NCBI GenBank assembly: GCA_947259645.1
Contig: CAMYND010000013.1
Span: 1 to 47,472, forward strand
Direction of reading: 5' to 3'
Source: Thermodesulfovibrionia bacterium
GTDB taxonomy: Bacteria; Nitrospirota; Thermodesulfovibrionia; UBA6902
Length of the DNA: 47,472 nucleotides
The notes beneath the pieces are model-generated. The model saw only the letters and a program-made list of their open reading frames with translations. It was not told the DNA's origin and did not search any database. Of the stretch, positions 40,005-43,026 are shown piece after piece. A program made the position numbers and the translations under genes. Numbering within the stretch: the first letter of the stretch is position 1; every line of letters starts with the position of its first letter.

Positions 40005-40760
40005 TTACGATTCCAGTGCCGGAACACTCTCAGGGGTCATTGGCGTCTCATCGTAGCAATAGACTTCTATGGGCTGAGGCACAGTCATGTCTTCGACACA
40101 GCTGATTGTAGCGGTGCATTCAAACTGTTCCCGGTACCACTGTGTATGGTGATGTTCCACGAATTGGCGGTCGACAAAACCTGTGATCATACCTGACAGC
40201 GCAGCCCGGCTGCTCGGATTAACCATAGCCATAAAAAGATGTCCCGCGACAAGGGGGATAGCGATAACAGCCATTCCAAAGTGGATTACCCATGACAGAA
40301 GGATCCCGTTAGTCATCCATATTACAATCCCCGTCAGTATATACAATGGGTAGGTTGCTGTCAGTGTCATAAAGTTCACTTTTTCAGCTGCATTAAATTT
40401 GCCCTGTTCAGGCAGGGAGATTTTTTTAGAGACAGCAGCGGGGCTCATGAGCAGCAGCCATTTCAGGTCTTTGAAGCTCCATGTCCATGCCTGCTTTATA
40501 TTATGGAAATAAACCCTGATGTCTTTTCTGTGTTTTATCAAGGACAGCAAAGGAAAAATTATGAGGCTTACTCCTGATATCCTGTGAACCCAGGAAACAG
40601 CATCCCGGTATGGACGGGACGGGTCAGGATTGTAGACAATGACGAGAACCATGGCAGTTGCAAAGCAGAGCATGAAGGGAACAGCCATTGCCCAGTGGAT
40701 ATTTATCTCTGATTTGCGGAAACGCATTATTTTTTGTGATGACTGTTCCTGGTTTTTCAT
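40005..40760 (-). CDS. Dihaem cytochrome b subunit (formate dehydrogenase gamma / b561 type)
   Basis: A 251-residue membrane protein with four main helices. Histidines H22 (INIHWAM), H59 (WVHRISG), H160 (VIHFGM) and H174 (VAGHLFM) match the four b-haem ligands of FdnI/b561-type quinone-reacting subunits. The family passes electrons between the quinone pool and a periplasmic partner. The C-terminal 45 residues are hydrophilic and include three cysteines (ECTATISC, YCYDE), which is unusual. No dehydrogenase catalytic subunit is adjacent. The divergent multihaem cytochrome c is the nearest candidate electron partner, which is inference. Confidence 0.87.
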   Translation of the reverse strand: MKNQEQSSQKIMRFRKSEINIHWAMAVPFMLCFATAMVLVIVYNPDPSRPYRDAVSWVHRISGVSLIIFPLLSLIKHRKDIRVYFHNIKQAWTWSFKDLKWLLLMSPAAVSKKISLPEQGKFNAAEKVNFMTLTATYPLYILTGIVIWMTNGILLSWVIHFGMAVIAIPLVAGHLFMAMVNPSSRAALSGMITGFVDRQFVEHHHTQWYREQFECTATISCVEDMTVPQPIEVYCYDETPMTPESVPALES

Positions 40761-40947: not shown

Positions 40948-41064
40948 ATGAAACGCTTCATCTAATAAGGAGACTGCCTGTTCCTCTGAATTCCTAAAGT
41001 AATAGCAGTGATATTCCGAATAGATGGGAAGTACCTAAGGAAGAAGAACGGTCTTTCTGAGAAT

Positions 41065-43026
41065 ATGAAAAAAACTCTCGCATTTATAGTAGTTTCAATA
41101 GTTATTCTTTTTGCAAGCGGAAATGAAGCGTTAAGCCAGTGGATTGCTCCCGGTACATTGACGAAAGCCCACAAAGACCTCCGCGGTGTGACGAGCTGCC
41201 TGAAATGTCATACCCTGACACAGGGACTTGATAATAAGGCATGCAGCTCAAGCTCGTGCCATGAAAAACTGCAGAAAAAAATCAAGGAGAAGAAGGGACT
41301 CCATGCCAGGATTGAGAGCGATTGTGTCACCTGTCATACTGACCATAAAGGGGCAGAGTATGACATTACCGCGATAAACGAGGAATCCTTTCAACATTCA
41401 TTAACAGGGTACGAATTGCTTGACAGTCATCATGTTGGCTGTAAAGAATGCCATACAAAGGAAGGAACATACCTGGAGCTTAAGACAGATTGCCTGAGTT
41501 GCCATGCGGATGTACACAAGAAAGCCGTTTCAGAGGACTGTATACAATGCCATAATTATAAAGAATGGAAAGATTATGTTTTTGATCATGCGAAAAAAGC
41601 TGATTATAAACTGATTGGAAAGCATGTTGATGTAAAGTGCGAACTCTGTCATCCACGGGAAAGAGTTGTTGCAAAATCCGGGTACAGTGAAAAAGAGTAT
41701 CAGGTCCTGAAACTGAAACCGATACAGTCTGAAACATGCATGGATTGCCATTATGATGTGCACAAGGGACAGTTTAAAGACCAGAAGTGCGATGCCTGTC
41801 ATTCTGTTGAGAAGGGGTGGAAGGAATATACCTTTAAGCATGAGTCAGAAAAATACAGGGGATACAGGCTTGAGGGCAAACACAAAGACGTTGATTGCGA
41901 GAAGTGCCATGCCCGGACTGATATTAAATATACCGAGTTTACTGCTGATAAAAAAGTATCAGTTGGTACATTTAAACCGATTAAGGGCAAAATCTGCAGT
42001 GAATGTCATTATGATGTTCATAAGGGCCAGTTTAAGAAACAGAAGTGCAATGAATGTCATTCAGTGGAAAAGGACTGGAAGGACTATACCTTTGACCACC
42101 AGTCCGAAAAGTTCAGCTACAAGCTTGAGGGCAAACACAAAGACGCAGATTGCGTGAAGTGCCATGCGAAAAATGAGGTCACCTATACAGAGTTCAGAAC
42201 AGCAAAGAAAGTCCTGATAAGCACCTTTGAAAAGATCAAGGCTGAAGAGTGCACGAGCTGTCATTTTGATATTCATAACGGTGAGTTTAAAGACCAGAAA
42301 TGCGATGCATGTCACTCACTGGAAAAGGGCTGGAAGGATTATACCTTTGACCACCAGTCTGAAAAGTTCAGCTACAAGCTTGAGGGCAGACATAAAGACG
42401 TTGACTGCGTGAAGTGCCATCTGAAGAAAGAAGTCAAATACAATGAGTTTGAGACAGCGAAAAAGGTCGTGATAAGTTCCTTTGAAGAAATAAAGGCAGA
42501 CGAGTGTACGAGTTGTCATTTTGATATTCATAACGGACAGTTTAAAGACCAGAAATGCAACTCCTGCCATTCATTGGAAAAGGAATGGAAAGATACGACA
42601 TTTAAACACGAAGCCGAGAATTATAAGGGATACAAGCTTGAGGGCAAGCATAAACCGGTTGAATGCGAGAAATGCCATAAACGGAGTGAAATCAGCTATA
42701 CAGAATTTAATCTGCAGAAAAAGGTAATGATTGGCGAGTTTAAACCGCTTAAATCAGATAAGTGCGGTGATTGTCATAAGAACGGCCACGAGCGGGAATT
42801 AAAAGGGATGGAGAAGCTCGAGGGCTTAACATGTGCTGACTGTCATTCAGTTGAGAAAGAGTTTAAAGAGCACGATTATAAGCACAAGGAAGACAGCAAG
42901 TATCATAAATATAACCTGAACGGCCAGGTTCATGAATCAAATTGTGCTGAATGTCATTACTGTGATCCCAATATGTTCTCTATCTCCAGCTGCTTCAATG
43001 AGTTGGGGATTTTGCCGACGGATTAA
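41065..43026 (+). CDS. Periplasmic multihaem cytochrome c with 22 haem-binding motifs
   Basis: A 653-residue secreted cytochrome. The signal peptide MKKTLAFIVVSIVILFASG ends near ALS-Q. I count 21 CXXCH motifs plus one CX4CH (CSSSSCH, second motif). The body is built of repeats of about 82-86 residues, each with three haem motifs: CxxCHxDxH, then CxxCHS, then CxxCH after LEGKHKDxDC. Unit starts are at 41491, 41737, 41995, 42250 and 42505, with a diverged unit from 42763. The frame is open to a GTG at 41008, but ATG 41065 begins the signal peptide. Such proteins act as periplasmic electron conduits or stores. No CXXCK or nitrite-reductase signature is seen, so it is probably an electron carrier rather than an enzyme. 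It is divergent from a dihaem cytochrome b. Confidence 0.93.
   Translation: MKKTLAFIVVSIVILFASGNEALSQWIAPGTLTKAHKDLRGVTSCLKCHTLTQGLDNKACSSSSCHEKLQKKIKEKKGLHARIESDCVTCHTDHKGAEYDITAINEESFQHSLTGYELLDSHHVGCKECHTKEGTYLELKTDCLSCHADVHKKAVSEDCIQCHNYKEWKDYVFDHAKKADYKLIGKHVDVKCELCHPRERVVAKSGYSEKEYQVLKLKPIQSETCMDCHYDVHKGQFKDQKCDACHSVEKGWKEYTFKHESEKYRGYRLEGKHKDVDCEKCHARTDIKYTEFTADKKVSVGTFKPIKGKICSECHYDVHKGQFKKQKCNECHSVEKDWKDYTFDHQSEKFSYKLEGKHKDADCVKCHAKNEVTYTEFRTAKKVLISTFEKIKAEECTSCHFDIHNGEFKDQKCDACHSLEKGWKDYTFDHQSEKFSYKLEGRHKDVDCVKCHLKKEVKYNEFETAKKVVISSFEEIKADECTSCHFDIHNGQFKDQKCNSCHSLEKEWKDTTFKHEAENYKGYKLEGKHKPVECEKCHKRSEISYTEFNLQKKVMIGEFKPLKSDKCGDCHKNGHERELKGMEKLEGLTCADCHSVEKEFKEHDYKHKEDSKYHKYNLNGQVHESNCAECHYCDPNMFSISSCFNELGILPTD
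41491..42762 (+). repeat. Five tandem ~82-86-codon three-haem repeats
   Basis: Units 41491-41736 (82 codons), 41737-41994 (86), 41995-42249 (85), 42250-42504 (85) and 42505-42762 (86). The third and fourth units are nearly identical at DNA level over long stretches (for example around 42106 and 42361, exactly 255 bases apart), which points to recent duplication or gene conversion. Confidence 0.9.

Follow-up and report, generated by a model that had tools for sequence, protein, structure and literature searches.

The locus analysed here raises the question of what a cytochrome c built from tandem haem units does in its cell, whether the number of units has changed among relatives, and with which partners the protein would exchange electrons. 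The gene lies on the plus strand of the window (the whole stretch of 47,472 nucleotides that was analysed, from a Thermodesulfovibrionia bacterium) at 41065..43026, from an ATG at 41065 to a stop codon ending at 43026. It encodes 653 amino acids, with a mature part of about 73 kDa before haem is added. An in-frame GTG is found upstream at 41008; the ATG is the better start because the signal peptide begins there. This signal peptide, probably of the Sec type, was recognised by inspection of the sequence at residues 1-24 (41065..41136, +), and the same inspection of the signal region revealed no lipobox. Aligned relatives retain the signal, followed by the motif (F/W/M)xSPGKL. The reading frame is uninterrupted and every haem motif is intact. 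Counting confirmed the 22 motifs reported in the initial annotation, namely 21 CX2CH and one CX4CH. The protein scored 79 bits against the Pfam Cytochrome_C7 model (PF14522, cut-off 24.8), which places it in that family, and Tandem Repeats Finder gave a score of 794 (threshold 50), so that the repeats are far above chance. The gene is thus real, intact and built of repeats, and its product would be a variation on a known type of molecular wire, not a novel class of system.

Judged by the spacing of its motifs, the protein begins with three haems in an N-terminal segment; a short three-haem unit of diverged sequence comes next, then five regular three-haem units (A1-A5, 85-93 amino acids each) and one last haem (3 + 3 + 15 + 1 = 22 motifs). 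All parts are on the plus strand. The N-terminal segment with motifs 1-3 (41197..41409) is strongly conserved across the family and is followed by the diverged unit with motifs 4-6 (residues 116-180, 41410..41604). Next come A1 (41605..41862), A2 (41863..42117), A3 (42118..42372), A4 (42373..42630) and A5 (42631..42909), the last with a 6-residue insert, and then the C-terminal segment with the final motif, CAECH (42910..43023). Repeat finders placed copies of 85-86 amino acids at a spacing of 255 or 258 bases, with starts at 41605, 41863, 42118 and 42373. The proposal of a tandemly duplicated 85-residue three-haem unit is therefore borne out as a c7-like array. The earlier count of five regular units and one diverged unit holds if residues 116-180 are taken as the latter; the first three haems and the last one belong to no unit.

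Units 3 and 4 had been described as nearly identical in DNA, which did not stand. A3 and A4 share 76-77% identity in DNA and 74% in protein, third codon positions hold 37 of the 60 differences, and the synonymous p-distance is 0.72 (dN 0.15; dS about 2.3, and so poorly estimated). Since the synonymous sites are nearly saturated, this duplication is old, and a recent expansion of the two units was rejected on the same ground. The best 60-base match between units (57/60) straddles a unit boundary, and this stretch may be where the impression of near identity arose. The longest exact repeat in the cytochrome gene is 28 bp. For that reason a short-read assembly is unlikely to have collapsed these units, and such collapse was rejected for the array in the window; what could still have been lost is identical extra copies. 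The earlier concern over collapsed repeats fits this gene poorly, but it does apply to five relatives in which the array breaks the assembly.

We compared the number of A-type units among relatives, using one genome per species. The window protein has 5 and the only other genome of its genus (G001) has 4, with 19 haems in all. Four units were also found in G013 and G025, and six in G010, G018, G027, G031 and G033; by genus, there are 4 in g13 and 6 in g7, g14 and one g10 genome. A fixed unit number in relatives had been set beforehand as the observation that would speak against an array of expandable length; the counts ranged from 4 to 6, so that the length does vary between relatives, across genera, and it may also vary between strains. 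A tree of the units, built on few columns and with many weak forks, paired sister units inside single proteins: A3 and A4 of the window (99/96), A2 and A4 of G018 (100/98) and A3 and A5 of G010 (100/94). The last units of the window and G001 proteins were orthologous (99/90). These pairings, read from the sequences, indicate that duplication or gene conversion occurred separately in several lineages, and that tandem duplication has changed the unit number over the time scale of genera.

The CX4CH motif (CSSSSCH) is the second in the protein, at residues 60-66 (41242..41262, +), as the initial annotation stated. In all 7 relatives aligned at this position the motif is CX2CH. The longer form is therefore private to the window protein and looks like a 6-base duplication (AGCTCA AGCTCG). 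We rejected it as a functional hallmark on account of this privacy. It carries little weight in any case, because CX4CH also belongs to the usual haem motifs of tetrahaem cytochrome c3. A comparison of 11 units, drawn from six genomes, showed three CXXCH motifs and three further invariant His residues in every unit, with no conserved Met. The whole window protein has 26 His outside the motifs for its 22 haems and just five Met, and these counts fit His-His coordination of every haem.

With the window protein alone as query, named genomes yielded no relative; an alignment-based scan found them. A profile of the N-terminal part matched 13 of the 37 genomes of the window's family, one of them (G021) merely in part. 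Close relatives are Nitrospirota/Thermodesulfovibrionia genomes from metagenomes; distant ones (24-36% identity) are found in Ignavibacteria, Chlorobi, Chloroflexi, Proteobacteria and others. In most relatives the cytochrome is longer, with a second array and 38 to at least 51 haems. This second, C-terminal array consists of shorter three-haem units in G013, G024, G025 and G027, and is absent in the window and G001. G013, a single-contig genome, has 42 motifs, G024 has 38, and G025 has 39 plus a masked stretch. In G027 the frame breaks after 41 motifs, and a further 11 follow in a different frame (L040:11380-12324); the break is either a sequencing error or a real frameshift. In four genomes the array runs off the contig end and the counts are lower bounds: 36 in G010, 32 in G018, 38 in G031 and 51 in G033, where at least 51 motifs lie in a single open frame (L042, 8371-12600). 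In G024 (L038), at residues ~247-253 of the cytochrome, a unit is incomplete and the junction CSKCKCH forms a CX4CH-like motif, whether through a genuine deletion or through a join made in assembly. G021 encodes a 10-haem protein (L043:8505-9329) that matches just the later part of the family and is followed by a barrel gene of the kind described below; its N-terminal arrays seem to have been lost.

The cytochrome has a conserved partner. A cytochrome b561/formate dehydrogenase gamma-like membrane protein is encoded at 40005..40760 on the minus strand (Pfam PF01292, 48.4 bits, cut-off 30.1), divergently transcribed from the cytochrome gene in the window and likewise in G001. Strong homologues (55-66% identity) were found in G001, G007, G010, G013, G018, G023, G024, G025, G027 and G031. 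The b561 gene adjoins the cytochrome gene in the window, G001, G013, G024 and G027, adjoins the tail of the cytochrome in G007, G010, G018, G023 and G031, and lies far from it in G025. No strong match was found in G033 or G021, and G003 gave a weak one. Across the 37 genomes, 10 have both genes, 3 and 1 have one alone, and 23 have neither (Fisher p 8e-6, a value that is too small because the genomes are related and shared ancestry is ignored). In a distant relative, one open reading frame (L056:7191-9185) comprises a b561-like N-terminal part (26% identity, E 1.5e-20 by tblastn) followed by 13 haem motifs; the Pfam b561 model gave no match in this frame. The b561 protein is a conserved partner of the cytochrome across the family, with one natural fusion.

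A third gene accompanies the pair in many relatives. In G013, G024 and G027 a gene for a protein of 420-660 amino acids stands between those for the giant cytochrome and b561. In G007, G010, G018, G023 and G031 the middle gene and b561 stand at a contig end behind a broken tail of the haem array; the position of these tails, at contig ends before the last two genes, shows that the arrays themselves broke the five assemblies. The middle protein probably is an outer-membrane barrel (genes at L040:12353-13681, L036:11268-13253 and, on the minus strand, L038:5090-6700). It has 21-24 alternating amphipathic stretches, compared with ~13 in shuffled versions, terminates in Phe, and matches barrel models weakly (E 0.009-0.03). 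The protein at L036 also has a SPOR domain. A profile search of the PDB with the barrel gave no match up to E 1, and an AlphaFold model from two sequences reached a pLDDT of 28 and was discarded. No homologue of this barrel was found in the window genome or G001, and it is also absent in G003 and L056. As cytochrome, barrel and b561 genes recur in this order, Nitrospirota relatives may have an electron-transfer route that is unnamed in the open-access full-text literature searched.

We infer from the sequence that the cytochrome is periplasmic and that electrons pass along its chain. In the reading that we prefer, to which we give a probability of roughly 0.6, it would be a periplasmic electron relay of tandem c7-like three-haem units, linked to the quinone pool by b561. 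The quinone-reactive b561 protein in the inner membrane would exchange electrons with the pool, and the 22-haem chain would convey these either along the periplasm or across it, to putative partners at its far end. Neighbouring haems in known multihaem cytochromes are about 1 nm apart; with such spacing, 22 haems in line would come to about the width of the periplasm. An AlphaFold model of the cytochrome from eight sequences (mean pLDDT 34.6, pTM 0.16) was discarded. Redox partners are available in the genome, since many other multihaem cytochromes are encoded there, for example on contigs C7 and C75, with 20 motifs (L132:1360-3858, -), 21 motifs (L131:8416-11619, -) and 26 + 16 motifs (L133:3401-6710). 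Some of these three adjoin further b561-like and NHL-like genes, and the 21-motif cytochrome comes after a Ca-binding-like acidic repeat region.

An extension of this relay, which we offer tentatively, is a modular conduit of Thermodesulfovibrionia that assigns two jobs to one giant cytochrome: the N-terminal array (4-6 x 85 amino acids) would bridge the periplasm, starting from b561, the C-terminal array would serve the adjacent barrel, and the window's genus would retain the periplasmic half alone. If so, the number of units would set the reach of the wire. The relatives form a natural series of wires with 4, 5 and 6 units, with and without the second array and the barrel, so that a possible effect of wire length on electron transfer can be addressed. 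The short form has another conceivable history, as a giant cytochrome cut short when the second array and the barrel gene disappeared, its original job gone. The window and G001 do indeed lack the array and barrel found in most relatives, but the open frame, the intact motifs, a dN well below dS and a C-terminal layout common to both species of the genus make such a remnant very improbable. The short form may even be the older one, because G003 and L056 are also without the barrel.

A role in storage, with the haems serving mainly as a periplasmic capacitor when acceptors are short and no long directed path needed, is possible although we consider it rather unlikely. Twenty-two haems in one soluble chain, with no outer-membrane anchor seen in the sequence, would suit it, and storage has been discussed for such proteins of Geobacter (PMC10138318). 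The conserved b561 and the membrane-barrel neighbour in relatives point instead to a through-path, although the two roles are mutually compatible. We regard it as doubtful, and less probable than storage, that the cytochrome is reserved as a redox partner for one respiration complex, of the soluble-acceptor or sulfur type, in the way of HmcA in sulfate reducers and without a link to extracellular electron transfer. One unit matches the first three-haem domain of HmcA, and the organism is among relatives in Thermodesulfovibrionia, a group with sulfate reducers. However, the NCBIfam HmcA model (NF045713) gave 20.6 bits against a cut-off of 400, and no other Hmc-type gene stands beside the cytochrome within the window. 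A periplasmic relay paired with b561 remains our preferred reading.

A PDB search with the single cytochrome sequence returned no match, and profiles did, one unit matching GSU1996 (PDB 3ov0, E 5e-6) and the three-haem domain of HmcA being matched at E 1.6e-5 (PDB 1h29). The DmsE decahaem model (TIGR03508) gave 37.9 bits, below its cut-off of 192.2. GSU1996 (12 haems) and GSU2210 (27 haems) of Geobacter are periplasmic 'nanowires of hemes' (PMC10138318), and like them the window protein is predicted to be a secreted single-chain polymer of c7-like three-haem domains with many haems. A linear crescent of haems at short edge distances characterises the GSU1996 type. Every domain of GSU1996 includes one His-Met haem, whereas each window unit contains three additional invariant His and lacks a conserved Met; without the His-Met haem, the window cytochrome was not placed in the GSU1996 group. 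Its units also differ, being ~85 amino acids long with haems 1 and 2 set far apart in the sequence, and it is accompanied by a b561 gene. Between 22 and 51 haems is no record, as DSOUD_0664 has 69 motifs (PMC4914508), a protein likened to ours by motif count alone. Like the porin-cytochrome conduits (MtrCAB, the Geobacter conduits and OetABI; PMC10553843), the relatives pair a giant cytochrome with a probable barrel; unlike them, the window and its genus mate are without a detectable homologue of that barrel, and an unrelated barrel may be encoded elsewhere. CbcL, MtrH and MtoC couple a HydC/FdnI-like b561 to a multihaem c domain of 3-23 motifs and act as quinol oxidases or quinone reductases, in either direction (PMC6295460, PMC9129911). 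The window shares their pairing of b561 with a multihaem cytochrome c and resembles a split CbcL: what is one polypeptide in CbcL, MtrH and MtoC is encoded by two divergent genes in the window and G001, and by a single frame in L056 only.
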